From positions 1-33,566 of IMG/VR virus record IMGVR_UViG_3300047478_000081: a stretch of 33,566 nucleotides of DNA; one strand, 5' to 3'. The DNA is from a virus. The notes under the pieces are model-generated. The model was not told the origin of the DNA and did no database searches. It worked only from the letters and a program-made list of their open reading frames with translations. Of this stretch, positions 5,221-31,109 are shown one piece after another. How positions within the stretch are numbered: position 1 is the stretch's first letter; each line of letters starts with the position of its first letter. Made by a program: the position numbers and the translations under genes.

Positions 5221-5230
5221 CTATGTAATG
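5212..5230 (+). promoter_or_regulatory. Primase ribosome binding site with an ATG-TAA start-stop element
   Basis: AAGGAG (5212-5217) is followed 5 bases later by ATG (5223), whose next codon is TAA. The primase ATG (5228) overlaps this as ATGTAATG. The SD spacing is ideal for the dead-end ATG and longer (10 bases) for the primase ATG. Ribosomes may start, stop at once and restart, which would lower or regulate primase output. The arrangement is directly visible; a regulatory role is an inference. Confidence 0.4.
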
Positions 5231-5971
5231 AGTCACTTCATTAAAAATACAGCCTGTCCAAAATGTCAAGAAGAAGGAAGGGATCGCAGTGGAAACAACT
5301 TGGGTAATTTTGCTGACGGTAGTGTTTATTGCTGGTCTTGTGGTTATTGGCAGCCTGGCAACGGCATTGCAAAAATTAAACAGGAGACACAAGAGGGAGA
5401 TTCGGTATCTACAAGAACAGTTGCGCTTCCAAGAGACAGCAGCTTCGAGCTACCTGGACTCGCTCGGAGTTACTTACAAAACTTTGCACTAACACAAGAT
5501 GATATTATTGTCAATAGGATTATGTGGTCAGAGGAATGGCAAAGAGTTATCTTCCCATACTTCGCACATGACCAGCTAGTTGGTTGGCAAGGAAGGTATC
5601 TAGGCAAGGAGAAGAAAGCTAAATGGTATAGTCAAGGAGTATTGCGTGATCTCATGCACGTTTGCGGCTACGCGCCCCCTGCTGGCAATCCTAGACCAAT
5701 TGTATTGACAGAGGATGTGATTAGTGCTATTAGGGTCGGTCACGTAACACAAGCCTCACCACTCTTTGGTAGCCATATTTCCACACAAGCAGCAATGCGT
5801 TACCACAAATTCTTTGACAACGTGATCATTTGGCTTGACAAAGATAAACAGATTGATTCAATCAAATTCACAGCACGTCTAAACAATCTAGGTATCACCA
5901 CAAGGAACATTATTACTGACAAAGACCCTAAAGAGTATACTGACACTGAGATTGTTGACATCTTAAAATAA
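5228..5971 (+). CDS. DNA primase (T7 gp4 N-terminal-like: zinc domain plus TOPRIM)
   Basis: A 247-aa protein. A zinc-binding domain comes first, with C10/C13 and C35/C38 (CPKC ... YCWSC), as in T7 gp4, where it reads the priming site. A TOPRIM domain follows with E162 (VLTEDV) and the D204-x-D206 pair (WLDKDK), the metal ligands for ribonucleotide polymerisation. The length matches only the primase half of T7 gp4; the helicase half is a separate gene at 6506. The two are separated by an HNH endonuclease gene. It makes RNA primers at the phage fork. ATG 5228 is used because upstream in-frame starts lie inside the preceding gene and lack an SD site. Confidence 0.88.
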   Translation: MSHFIKNTACPKCQEEGRDRSGNNLGNFADGSVYCWSCGYWQPGNGIAKIKQETQEGDSVSTRTVALPRDSSFELPGLARSYLQNFALTQDDIIVNRIMWSEEWQRVIFPYFAHDQLVGWQGRYLGKEKKAKWYSQGVLRDLMHVCGYAPPAGNPRPIVLTEDVISAIRVGHVTQASPLFGSHISTQAAMRYHKFFDNVIIWLDKDKQIDSIKFTARLNNLGITTRNIITDKDPKEYTDTEIVDILK

Positions 5972-5983
5972 TTATGTTACAAT
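5955..5983 (+). promoter_or_regulatory. Strong sigma70-type extended -10 promoter
   Basis: TTGACA (5955-5960) matches the -35 consensus fully. A 17-base spacer leads to TACAAT (5978-5983), five of six matches to the -10 box, preceded by TG at 5975-5976, the extended -10 motif. Transcription would begin near 5990, just before the AGGA and ATG of the stub at 6008. It would drive the HNH gene and the helicase. The surrounding DNA is A+T-rich, so chance matches are easier, but eleven of twelve positions with ideal spacing is unusual. Confidence 0.6.
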
Positions 5984-6007
5984 CTTTATATACTATATAG
6001 GAAATAC

Positions 6008-6043
6008 ATGATCAATATAATTTATTCATTACTTAATTATTAG
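6008..6043 (+). pseudogene. Eleven-codon stub: displaced 5' end of the helicase gene
   Basis: ATG 6008 has AGGA five bases upstream and encodes MINIIYSLLNY before TAG. The helicase at 6506 begins MVNIIYSLLSR: seven of the first nine residues after Met are identical, plus one Ile/Val change, yet nearly every codon differs (for example Ser is TCA here and AGC there). The simplest reading is that this is the original helicase start with its ribosome binding site, cut off when the HNH gene inserted. The stub stop overlaps the AGGA used by the HNH gene, so its translation may feed the HNH start. Confidence 0.6.
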
Positions 6044-6051
6044 GATAACTT

Positions 6052-6504
6052 ATGACTATCTGGCAGGATAACAACAAAGAGCACTTAAAGGAGTATAGAA
6101 AACAATATTATATTCAAAATAAAGAAACCATACTTAAAAAAGCAAAAGAAAAGGGACTTACAAAATTAGCGAAACTAAATAAAGGTATAAAAGCTGAAAA
6201 GAATTTTGAACGTATTTTATTTTATTCTAGTATTCAACATGCTAGAAAACTTGGCATAGAACACACAATTACGCTATCGGATATTATAATACCAACACAT
6301 TGTTCATATCTAAATATTGAACTAACAAAAACAAGAAATAATGGAGTAGTTTGGTCTAATGCCTCTATAGATAGAATAGATTCTACAAAAGGCTATATCC
6401 CTGGAAACATTCAAATTATTTCAAGAAAAGCAAACATAATGAAACAAAATGCAACACAGCAAGAATTACTTATATTTGCTAAAAATATTCTTAACCTAGA
6501 ATAA
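6052..6504 (+). CDS. HNH-type homing endonuclease between primase and helicase
   Basis: A 150-aa basic protein. The N-terminus (KEYRKQYYIQNKETILKKA) is a Lys-rich helix typical of DNA-binding tails of such enzymes. The catalytic part has PTHCSYLNIEL and then ASIDRIDSTKGYIPGNIQI followed by SRKANIMK, characteristic of a phage HNH endonuclease subfamily. These enzymes cut DNA of phages lacking the gene and spread by repair. The A+T-rich composition and codon use differ from the flanks. AGGA at 6042-6045 gives a six-base spacing to ATG 6052. Its stop lies one base before the helicase ATG, and the helicase has no good SD of its own, so helicase synthesis may depend on translation of this gene. 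Confidence 0.85.
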   Translation: MTIWQDNNKEHLKEYRKQYYIQNKETILKKAKEKGLTKLAKLNKGIKAEKNFERILFYSSIQHARKLGIEHTITLSDIIIPTHCSYLNIELTKTRNNGVVWSNASIDRIDSTKGYIPGNIQIISRKANIMKQNATQQELLIFAKNILNLE

Positions 6505-6505
6505 A

Positions 6506-7720
6506 ATGGTTAACATCATATATAGCCTGTTATCTAGAGAAATATATAGTAAATATAAAGATAGTTTATATAATATAATTAAAAAAGATAATAAAGAACT
6601 ATATTTACTATATAAATATATTACTGAACTTCACGATAAGTATTCTCGTGATATTACCTTTGAGGAATTTAGTCTATACACACTCTCTCGTGTACCTGAA
6701 AAAGATCGGGAAGTCTTCTCTGACTTGTTGCACAAAATCCAACAAGACGGCCCATCAGATATTGTACAAGATATTTTTGTAGAAATGCATAATAAACACG
6801 TTGCCTACAATCTTGCACTAAAAGCTCTAGAAGCGTCTGAGGGCCGTTTTTCTTTTGAGGAGCTACGTGGGTATACCCAAGAGCATTTAAATGCAGCCAC
6901 GCCCCTCGTAGGGCCCTCTATGGAGCCTGTAACGCATGATCTAGATGCACTTTTGAACGGAACCATCAAAACACAGGGGTTACGATGGAGATTAACCGCA
7001 ATGAACCAGATGCTTGGTTCGCTTAGAAAGGGTAACTTTGGATTCATATTCGCAAGACCAGAAACAGGGAAAACAACCTTCCTTGCATCAGAAATCTCCC
7101 ACTTCGCTCAACAAACAAAACGACCAATACTATGGTTCAACAATGAAGAAGATGGTGCCGCTGTTGAACTCCGAGTTTACCAAGCTACTCTTGGATGTAC
7201 ACTTACAGAACTTAGAGCTTTTCCAGAAGAATCTAATGCAAAGTTTATTGAACTCGGCGGGACTAACATCAAACTATTTGATTCAGCATCCATCCACCGA
7301 CGACAAGTTGAGGAACTTTGTGCGATCTACGACCCTGCCCTTATTGTCTTTGATCAACTTGATAAAGTCAAAGGATTCGTTGGAGACCGGGAAGATCTCA
7401 GACTTGGAGGAATTTATGTATGGGCTAGGGAACTTGCAAAACAGTATTGCCCTGTTATTGCCGTATCTCAAGCAGATGTGTCTGGAGAAGGAAAAAAGTG
7501 GCTAAACATGGAGAATGTAGCTAATGCCAAGACTGCAAAGCAAGCGGAAGCTGACTGGATTCTAGGTATTGGTTGCACTTTTCAGGATTCTGAACAGTAT
7601 GATAGGTTCTTACACCTGTCAAAGAATAAACTAATTGGGGATACAGATACCATCCCAGAATTGCGACACGGAAAAATGACTGTACGAATTGTGCCTGAGT
7701 TGGCAAGATATGAGGATTAA
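6506..7720 (+). CDS. Replicative DNA helicase (DnaB/T7 gp4 C-terminal family)
   Basis: A 404-aa protein. The N-terminal ~150 residues are helical, matching the linker/N-terminal region of DnaB-type helicases. The RecA-fold core starts near 165. Walker A is ARPETGKT (183-190; Ala replaces the first Gly), the Walker B strand is LIVFDQLD, and a later QAD/KTAKQAEADWIL segment matches the conserved glutamine and arginine-finger region. It should form a hexamer at the phage fork, working with the separate primase and the split polymerase. The first ten codons duplicate the stub at 6008-6043. ATG 6506 follows the HNH stop by one base and lacks an SD site. The first ~40 codons are strongly A+T-rich, like the HNH gene, and composition returns to normal near 6650. 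Confidence 0.9.
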   Translation: MVNIIYSLLSREIYSKYKDSLYNIIKKDNKELYLLYKYITELHDKYSRDITFEEFSLYTLSRVPEKDREVFSDLLHKIQQDGPSDIVQDIFVEMHNKHVAYNLALKALEASEGRFSFEELRGYTQEHLNAATPLVGPSMEPVTHDLDALLNGTIKTQGLRWRLTAMNQMLGSLRKGNFGFIFARPETGKTTFLASEISHFAQQTKRPILWFNNEEDGAAVELRVYQATLGCTLTELRAFPEESNAKFIELGGTNIKLFDSASIHRRQVEELCAIYDPALIVFDQLDKVKGFVGDREDLRLGGIYVWARELAKQYCPVIAVSQADVSGEGKKWLNMENVANAKTAKQAEADWILGIGCTFQDSEQYDRFLHLSKNKLIGDTDTIPELRHGKMTVRIVPELARYED

Positions 7721-29433: not shown

Positions 29434-30332
29434 TATGCGGCCTCCAGTAGTGCTGCACTAACCATTGCGTCAGACCAATTCAGGGTTCCTGCACCGCCAG
29501 CAGCATCGACAAGGAACTGCACATAATCAGTCGTTCCATTCATGTAGAAGATGCCAGAGATAGCGGGTTGTCCGTAGAGGGAAGTACTATACGGTGCGAC
29601 GTACTGCTGAACCTGATTCCCTGCGCCGCCAGCGTTCTTCCTGATTGTCACACCGAAGTAATTAGCAGCAACAGAGGTTTGACCATTGACCCTGAAGTTG
29701 AACTGATACCAACCTTCCACAGTGGGCAAGAACCTGTCGGTCGCAGGGTTCCATGCGTTACCAACATTGGTTTCTGCAACGATGTCGGTCAGACTAGTCA
29801 TAACGAACCCCGCGCTTGTCGGCCCCGCTTGCCTTCCTGTGAAAGCGATCTTCGTGTTCTGAGGGAATGCCACCTTCCCCGCAGCATCCACAGTCAGAAT
29901 ATCTTGTGTGGTTGCACCAGCATTACCCCTAGCTAACTTCATAGTACCATCAGCAGCCTCAGCCGTAATGGTAAAATTATTAGTAGCAGTACCAGAGTCA
30001 CCAAATTGACCAGCTTTGATTTTTGGTGCTGTTATAGTTTTATTTGTTAGTGTAGATACGGCACTGTCTTTAGTTGCATCACTTGTGTTATCTACATTAC
30101 CCAAACCAAGAGTAGTTCTTTGTGCTGCTGCATCAACATCATCTAATAAAGCTAGTCCGGCAGTAGTCGGATTAACAGCAGCATACTCTGTTAGATTTGC
30201 TGAGTATGGCTGAATAGACACACCAATATCAGTTGAATCTACTTTATCAGTGTTAAGGTTAATAAAGTTTGCATCTACCTCATTCCAAGATAGTGTAAAG
30301 CCTTTACCAGCTCGTGTTACAATTGTACTCAT
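29433..30332 (-). CDS. Tail fibre protein with C1q-like C-terminal domain
   Basis: A 299-aa protein. It begins MSTIVTRAGKG with a small anchor, then a fibre segment with 'GLGNVDNTSD' and 'TLTNKTITAP', the usual phage fibre shaft motifs. The C-terminal ~140 residues match the C1q/TNF-like knob pattern: NWNPATDRF-like turn, TVEGWYQFNFRVNG, VTIRKNAGG and a final strand before SAALLEAA. Such knobs bind host surface sugars or proteins. The base composition changes inside the gene: the 5' part (about 29,930-30,332) is A+T-rich, the 3' part (29,433 to about 29,900) G+C-rich, which fits a knob exchanged from another phage. Confidence 0.8.
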   Translation of the reverse strand: MSTIVTRAGKGFTLSWNEVDANFINLNTDKVDSTDIGVSIQPYSANLTEYAAVNPTTAGLALLDDVDAAAQRTTLGLGNVDNTSDATKDSAVSTLTNKTITAPKIKAGQFGDSGTATNNFTITAEAADGTMKLARGNAGATTQDILTVDAAGKVAFPQNTKIAFTGRQAGPTSAGFVMTSLTDIVAETNVGNAWNPATDRFLPTVEGWYQFNFRVNGQTSVAANYFGVTIRKNAGGAGNQVQQYVAPYSTSLYGQPAISGIFYMNGTTDYVQFLVDAAGGAGTLNWSDAMVSAALLEAA

Positions 30333-30616
30333 AGTAAATCATCTCCTGTTACATATCCACTTACTGAATATCCCGAATCCCAGTATAGGATATAATCAAC
30401 AGTTGTAAAAACATATGTTGGGATTGGTCTTGTGAATGGTACTGAGATCTTGTCCTGTCTAGCCCTCACAAAGTCCTGTTCGTGTCGCGGTTCCCAGTCA
30501 TCCAGACAGACACGGAAACCATCCCAACGCTGTCTGGACTCTGAGGCTTTTATCTTCCTAGAACATACATCGCATGTCACATTGAATTCGCCGGAAACGT
30601 AATAATTCTTAGACAT
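30329..30616 (-). CDS. Small zinc-ribbon phage protein near fibre genes
   Basis: A 95-aa protein. N-terminal YYVSGEFNVTCDVCSRKIKA has CxxC, and VCLDDWEPRHEQDF continues with a Cys and a conserved Arg/His stretch; the series RQRWDGFRVC is typical of a small protein family found next to tail fibre genes in many phages. The C-terminal ~30 residues (Tyr-rich, VSGYVTGDDLL) look like an add-on. It probably binds zinc. Its first 14 residues are repeated at the start of the HNH protein just upstream. It overlaps the HNH 3' end by eight bases; the GAGGA RBS lies in the HNH gene. Confidence 0.7.
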   Translation of the reverse strand: MSKNYYVSGEFNVTCDVCSRKIKASESRQRWDGFRVCLDDWEPRHEQDFVRARQDKISVPFTRPIPTYVFTTVDYILYWDSGYSVSGYVTGDDLL

Positions 30617-31109
30617 GGTATATGTTCCTCTTGCTTAAATTATGTTGTGCCGGAAGATACTGAAGATTATTTTCAACATGCAATCCTGAGACTAGTTTAC
30701 CACGTAAAGGTATAACATGATCTACATGGAAACCTATAGGACAACCTAAATACAAAGCTTTTATTTTAGGAAGGTCAGACCAACTTGGAGTACGTTTTGC
30801 TTTTTCTGCTCTATATGTGGCAGCACGAAAAGCATCATAAGGTAGATTATTTCTTCTCCATGTTCTGGTGCTTTGTCTAGACAGCTCTCGATTATTTGCT
30901 TTGTTTCGCCAGTTTTCCGTGTATTCTTTCTGTTTTTCTGGTTTCATATGTTTCTTATTTGCTTCTAATAAACAGGGTTTACAACGAGAAGCAACACCAC
31001 ATTTACCATCCACCTGTTTATAGAAGTTGTCTAAAGACTTTTCTTCTTTACAAACAGAACAGCACTTGGTAATATTCCAATCACCAGATACATAATGATT
31101 TTTGCTCAT
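30609..31109 (-). CDS. HNH endonuclease with N-terminus copied from the downstream gene
   Basis: A 166-aa protein. Residues 1-14 (MSKNHYVSGDWNIT) match the start of the downstream zinc-ribbon protein (MSKNYYVSGEFNVT). Then come a CxxC zinc finger (CSVC ... CKPC), a Lys/Arg-rich linker and an HNH core: GFHVDHVIPLRGKLVSGLHV followed by NNLQYLPAQHNLSKRN, the canonical HVDHxxPL...NLxxLP...N pattern. This is a free-standing homing-type endonuclease. It is A+T-rich relative to its neighbours. ATGA couples it to the repeat-protein gene, with AAGGTGAT eight bases upstream. It uses the virion operon's transcript. Confidence 0.87.
   Translation of the reverse strand: MSKNHYVSGDWNITKCCSVCKEEKSLDNFYKQVDGKCGVASRCKPCLLEANKKHMKPEKQKEYTENWRNKANNRELSRQSTRTWRRNNLPYDAFRAATYRAEKAKRTPSWSDLPKIKALYLGCPIGFHVDHVIPLRGKLVSGLHVENNLQYLPAQHNLSKRNIYHV

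Follow-up and report, generated by a model that had tools for sequence, protein, structure and literature searches.

How did a phage replicative helicase gene come to have its first codons written twice, in largely different codons, with an endonuclease gene lying between the two versions? The question is raised by the primase/helicase junction of a 33,566-base virus record, the whole of which is here called the window. A DNA primase gene (5228 to 5971, plus strand; phrog_47 DNA primase, 1.5e-29), whose order relative to its neighbours is kept in relatives, is followed by an AGGA (5999 to 6002, plus strand) placed 5 nt upstream of an ATG (6008-6010). This ATG opens a short frame, MINIIYSLLNY-stop (6008 to 6043, plus strand; TAG at 6041-6043), which we call the stub. 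An HNH endonuclease gene of 150 amino acids and of PacI-like bba-metal type (6052 to 6504, plus strand; phrog_3322 endonuclease, 6.7e-27) begins 8 nt after the stub stop, and its own putative ribosome-binding site, a second AGGA (6042 to 6045, plus strand), overlaps that stop and lies 6 nt before the HNH ATG. A single base separates the HNH stop from the ATG of a DnaB-like replicative helicase of 404 amino acids (6506 to 7720, plus strand; phrog_19, 3.5e-47; Pfam DnaB_C, 1.4e-8), in the arrangement TAA-A-ATG. The helicase ORF is whole, aligns from residue 1 to those of the relatives L003 and L005, and reads MVNIIYSLLSR at its restored start, with no Shine-Dalgarno sequence in the preceding 18 bases (TTCTTAACCTAGAATAAA). 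The first-pass annotation had given this order, with the AGGA and the ATG at 6008 opening the stub, and had noted a ribosome-binding site before the stub and none before the restored start; its coordinates and this asymmetry were both borne out, and the AGGA of the HNH gene was absent from it.

Over their first nine residues the two starts share eight identical residues and one Ile/Val pair. The same annotation had counted eight of nine as identical or Ile/Val, so the likeness that it reported is real and the correct count is all nine; it was right that only ATG and TAT are unchanged among the nine codons. Six of the seven conserved residues that have synonymous codons are recoded, and nucleotide identity over the nine codons is 56%. 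Across 11 residues the pair scores 40 with BLOSUM62. One could regard the stub as an independent leader peptide that regulates translation, resembling the helicase through coincidence or convergence, and its shortness, its good ribosome-binding site and the overlap of its stop with the next such site would suit that role; but when the 80-nt leader was dinucleotide-shuffled 2000 times, no shuffle matched the restored start as well as the stub does (largest score 33), and HNH-free relatives have the helicase start in the same place, which makes this explanation very improbable. Against a helicase N-terminus profile from which the window sequence had been excluded, the stub reached 13.2 bits, a value equalled or exceeded by 29 of 2000 shuffles, and the restored start only 6.9 bits. 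The match spans just 9-11 residues of AT-rich DNA, too short for a tree, and the grouping of the two copies is given by these two values. Among 49 distinct relatives, 18 of 1176 pairs of helicase N-termini agree, like the stub and the restored start, at at least seven of positions 2-9. Judging from these scores, the likeness is not a chance one, and of the two copies it is the stub that resembles the family more closely. As far as sequence comparison can show, both starts diverged while each was translated as a helicase start, since the silent differences imply that both copies were under protein-level selection in different genomes, as a useless local copy would not have been. Nine codons are no proof of selection for recoding, because free codon choice alone changes most silent positions. 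The high AT content of the helicase 5' end was considered as a sign of foreign DNA and rejected, insert-free relatives being equally AT-rich there.

What occupies this place when the HNH gene is absent? We collected 79 helicase relatives from IMG/VR, one of which (L001) is the same phage, and found primase followed by helicase in the IMG/VR relatives and in several annotated phages (MEP401 is filed under Zobellviridae). The nearest helicases are about 58% identical in protein to that of the window, and no empty, that is HNH-free, allele of the window phage was found in the data, so the interpretation of the window rests on relatives. A megablast of window positions 1-25000 against annotated phages gave no match, an exact search for the primase end in IMG/VR found none, and a helicase search of bacterial genomes returned three distant matches only. 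In the window, a promoter-like sequence, TTGACA-17-TACAAT, lies at the primase end (5955 to 5983, plus strand; 11/12 matches, with TG before the second hexamer) and is presumed to be the native helicase promoter, as the AGGA before the stub is presumed to be the native helicase ribosome-binding site. In the short-gap, HNH-free relatives L005, L031, L033 and L341, sites of the same form were seen by eye at the same place, with the helicase start next; a promoter scan of the region gave a total of 8 against 7.2 expected by chance, i.e. no excess. The DNA that follows the primase-end promoter in HNH-free relatives is a stub-like helicase start: INIIKYLLNI in L007, VLYLIKLLLNY in L008 and AGGAAATTACATGATTGAATTACAA in L031, where AGGAAATTAC-ATG precedes the helicase at the counterpart of AGGAAATAC-ATG in the window. 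The family pattern is roughly x-I/L-x-x-I-K-x-L-L-N-x, and the stub matches it. The first-pass annotation had predicted that alignment with HNH-free relatives would reveal stub-like helicase starts, and had held that unrelated DNA at this place, or a separate conserved gene for the stub peptide, would refute its proposal; the alignment agreed with the prediction, if with no relative closer than about 58% identity, the helicase start fills the place of the stub, and no such separate gene was found among the relatives. L001, a separate assembly of the window phage, has 39,906 nt, runs 12.3 kb beyond the window end and is 100% identical to the window in the stretches compared. It begins at window position 6018, inside the stub, and hence gives no second allele; the break might come from a population in which some phages had the HNH gene and others lacked it.

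The window HNH protein was modelled with AlphaFold from 48 homologues (mean pLDDT 88.5), and the best PDB match of the model was PacI (3ldy), a rare-cutting HNH enzyme (E 1.4e-3, probability 1.00); the model also matched the fold of the Gme HNH nicking enzyme. C84, D107, Y115, N119, A127, N128 and K131 are invariant in the 48 homologues. PacI is the closest solved structure both by fold and by sequence, but it is a restriction enzyme whose sequence is only weakly similar overall (E 0.006 to 0.3). Pfam and NCBIfam searches with the HNH protein gave nothing, and an intron search at the HNH gene gave no group I or II match and no convincing overlap with an RNA family. Having an HNH/bba-metal fold or motif and lying outside any intron or intein, the gene agrees in these two features with a free-standing HNH homing endonuclease gene, site-specific cutting and biased inheritance being inferred; with no self-splicing intron around the ORF it does not qualify as one encoded by a group I intron.

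We consider it likely, with good confidence, that this free-standing HNH homing endonuclease gene entered after helicase codon 11 and brought with it a recoded replacement 5' end, the cutting, the mobility and the translational coupling being inferred. Related phages offer better resolved cases. A homologue of the window HNH protein is encoded at the helicase start of L054 and L050 (46% identity for L054). The L054 flanks are about 88-93% identical on both sides to the empty relatives L060-L076; on the left, identity stops 14 nt before the empty helicase ATG, and on the right it begins again past helicase codon 19, with about 50 bases that match L060 perfectly. The first 19 helicase codons of L054 read LIELIIIKYILCRETYSKY versus MIELIIIKYILNNIIYNKY in the empty relatives. 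The motif RExYSKY is common to the recoded start of L054 and the restored start of the window, and together with the silent changes relative to the stub it identifies the putative replacement 5' end of the window helicase (6506 to 6556, plus strand), whose right boundary was inferred from the L054 tract (Y17 of YSKY; codon 19 in L054) and not observed in the window. A candidate remnant in the L054 leader was not accepted, the alignment past GACA being low-complexity AT.

Other endonucleases have entered the same junction. In L036, L041, L042 and L071 the helicase's own ATG serves as the start codon of an endonuclease VII gene (PF02945). The L036 insert (1159-1524) comprises 362 nt at the helicase ATG and has a 9-nt repeat, TGATAGAAC, at both ends, and helicases of this type restart at a TTG after the endonuclease VII gene. 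Three leader haplotypes exist both empty (L033, L034, L047) and filled, which implies that the insert has been gained or lost by recombination. No convincing stub was found 5' of the endonuclease in L016, L051, L053, L183 or L018, and most of the other HNH genes at helicase starts (L016, L051, L053, L183) have no recognisable stub. At least three endonuclease types use the primase/helicase junction. The third type (HNH_3) overlaps or abuts the helicase start in L058, L065, L066 and L072.

With several endonuclease types at one junction, and phage genomes being mosaic, ordinary phage recombination might have brought in the HNH gene and a divergent helicase start as a block, without homing and with the endonuclease as a passenger; nuclease genes are known to mark exchange boundaries, according to the accessible part of one source (PMC10448857). 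The exchanged tracts, however, span very few nucleotides (57 nt in L054, and about 100 nt in L214 and at least 129 nt in L422, two cases at gene 3' ends described below) and are located at the endonuclease gene, and the same endonuclease family shows this at four or more unrelated genes. Exchange of this kind is thus an unlikely explanation.

The window itself contains a second case (30329-31109). An endonuclease VII/HNH-type gene (30609 to 31109, minus strand; phrog_1035, 3.5e-21) has first codons, MSKNHYVSGDWN, that copy the start of the next gene, a small conserved phage gene adjoining the tail genes (30329 to 30616, minus strand), which comparison with HNH-free relatives indicates to have a recoded start, MSKNYYVSGEFN. 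The duplicated stretch is formed by the first 12 codons of the endonuclease gene, and between the two copies the codons differ at six of the eight conserved degenerate positions. HNH-free relatives of the small gene keep the W of the HNH copy (MSRNYYEKGSWN, YDKGDWN), suggesting that the HNH gene took the native start and that its neighbour carries the replacement.

Endonuclease genes homologous to the HNH gene at the window helicase start are also found at the 3' ends of genes. A scan for duplicated termini that brought out such cases covered 167 distinct endonuclease loci, fetched by similarity to the window and L214 enzymes, and therefore gives no rate for phages at large. In L214 (2301-3064), a homologue of the window HNH gene follows the recoded 3' end of a primase-helicase gene; compared with L259, 27 identical codons are followed by 16 silent changes up to the gene end. 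A remnant lies 3' of the HNH gene; dozens of close empty relatives have 3' ends that match its last 80 nt at 96-100% identity, and it runs on into the same downstream DNA as in those relatives. L297/L298 represent a second filled lineage. The L214 cut site is predicted to lie around GGTGTCACAGGTCCAGCCTG, where the active gene reads GGTGTGACTGGCCCTGCTTG with five silent changes; cutting has not been measured. In L422 (1527-2437), the gene for the terminase large subunit has a recoded 3' end, followed by an HNH homologue and, downstream, the native 3' end. Over 43 codons the active end and the remnant have 9 identical codons, 30 silent and 4 replacement changes, and it is the remnant, not the active end, that resembles the empty alleles. 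The same recoded-3'-end layout occurs at another primase-helicase in L200 (2353-3270). In L214 and L422 the native copy clearly groups with close relatives and the active copy is divergent. Presence and absence at one site were seen for homologues of the window gene in L054, L214 and L422 and for endonuclease VII in L036, not for the window itself. In L400 (1726-2373), a C-terminus is duplicated (NSWHHKYVVWVFLTSL / NTWYHKYVVWIFLTSL) around an HNH gene at an unidentified phage gene. A polymerase/HNH junction in Caulobacter phage S2B was rejected, its matches being spurious reading frames in GC-rich DNA.

These cases also bear on the idea that the helicase 5' end was doubled in place, the HNH gene later splitting the two copies, which drifted apart afterwards. 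The direct repeats flanking the L036 insert would be in keeping with such a duplication; a functionless copy, however, would not hold eight of nine residues while changing six of the seven available silent positions, and the copy that matches the empty relatives in L214 and L422 is the remnant rather than the active one. We therefore give local duplication hardly any weight. The proposal of the first-pass annotation that the HNH gene integrated at the helicase 5' end together with a replacement start finds support in the empty and filled pairs among the relatives. DNA comparison establishes that the terminus is duplicated, that its copies diverged while the protein was kept, and that related phages have this architecture along with empty alleles; by the same token the relatives show phage endonuclease genes doing this repeatedly, at both ends of essential genes.

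If the HNH gene entered the helicase gene with a replacement end, the old start would have been left as an 11-codon stub with the native promoter and ribosome-binding site. The enzyme is inferred to cut close to the insertion point in a gene that is still uninterrupted; an HNH-bearing co-infecting phage would then serve as template for repair of the break, and the copied tract would include the donor's divergent gene end. One crossover would fall in the gene body, and the other event would join the donor to the broken native end, and what is left may be a stub, as in the window, a captured start, as in L036 and the second window case, a remnant downstream, as in L214 and L422, or, as in L054, nothing. 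Being recoded, the new end would keep the helicase intact and no longer match the cut site, and it may be divergent enough for deletion by recombination to be limited. Ribosomes that load at the stub could start again at the HNH gene, whose AGGA overlaps the stub stop, and once more at the helicase (TAAAATG). The helicase probably relies for its translation on ribosomes that reinitiate after the HNH gene, a reading taken only from the TAA-A-ATG layout and the missing Shine-Dalgarno sequence. Against this explanation as a whole, neither the window phage nor any close relative offers an empty allele, most other HNH genes at helicase starts lack a recognisable stub, the signal in the window is confined to nine codons, and silent saturation in a distant donor would suffice without selection for recoding. 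In the L422 terminase, the silent fraction (0.76) is higher than in any of the 264 empty-empty pairs with comparable protein identity (maximum 0.64), an excess that hints at selection for recoding; it is not general, because the L214 fraction (0.56) merely equals the largest of 13 comparable pairs.

The closest precedent is that of fungal mitochondrial mobile ORFs with foreign C-termini, described for atp6, atp9, cox2 and nad3 of Glomus sp. (PMC3630166), with an earlier Allomyces atp6 case cited in the part of that paper available. As in the window, the end of a gene is occupied by an endonuclease gene, the active terminus is foreign, the native terminus is a remnant, and the peptide is kept while the nucleotides diverge (63.5% nucleotide and 91% amino-acid identity for atp6; PMC3630166). 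The fungal cases are C-terminal and mitochondrial and involve LAGLIDADG or GIY-YIG enzymes, whereas the window case is N-terminal, in a phage, and involves a PacI-like HNH enzyme; it shares with them a terminus that flanks the endonuclease twice and, being at a 5' end, lacks their 3' location. The phage 3' cases L214, L422 and L200 match the fungal layout.

The free-standing seg/mob endonucleases of T4 (intronless homing), in so far as the accessible portion of PMC2988022 describes them, resemble the window gene in being promoter-less, lying between replication genes, using an upstream promoter and adjoining or overlapping their neighbours. According to the same portion, the T4 enzymes are encoded between genes, and their cuts usually fall at a distance of hundreds to thousands of bases, which counts against a cut near the window insertion point; only intergenic and gene-splitting insertions are described there for T4 endonucleases, and no duplicated recoded gene terminus. 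The genes in pieces that this partial source also covers (Aeh1 mobE in nrdA, T4 mobA in gene 60) likewise involve insertion within an essential coding sequence, but their target stays split into two working polypeptides, and the window helicase is made whole by its replacement end. The engineered HomeR drive (PMC7968924) resembles the window in placing a nuclease in an essential gene under the native promoter, with a re-coded end that restores function and, in HomeR, resists cutting; HomeR is designed, Cas9-based and at a 3' end in Drosophila, and the window element is natural and at a 5' end. Our best reading is that the element is in effect a natural home-and-rescue element, its cutting being inferred. 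That phages host natural home-and-rescue drives, in which HNH elements target essential-gene ends and are accompanied by a terminus under selection for silent recoding, we put forward only tentatively, as a possibility that falls short of being favoured; recoding would then keep the enzyme from cutting its own element and prevent recombination between the repeats from removing it.

No phage report of replacement gene termini was found in the literature, with subscription journals mostly outside our coverage. What is new is the occurrence in phages, the 5'-end version, the recurrence at several genes and with several types of endonuclease, and the excess of silent changes in the terminase. Free-standing homing endonucleases must enter essential phage genes without killing the phage or cutting their own copy, and a recoded gene end that is carried along would solve both problems, as a natural counterpart to engineered rescue drives. 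The arrangement would explain why endonuclease genes abut or overlap helicase starts in this phage group. It would also make the target of an enzyme readable from sequence, the stub or remnant and the recoded tract allowing direct prediction and testing of the cut site, and it serves as a warning that a phage replication or packaging gene can have ends whose ancestry is not that of the gene body.

A separate observation concerns helicase starts in the relatives. Twelve of 50 distinct helicase N-termini (L004, L005, L007, L012, L019, L028, L044, L045, L065, L073, L134 and L147), and likewise that of L341, lack an in-frame ATG, GTG or TTG ahead of the conserved LL motif. Several of these helicases have AAGGAG a few bases before an ATT or ATA (e.g. 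AAGGAGTATATCT-ATT in L134), suggesting putative AUU-type starts for the replicative helicase in such relatives.
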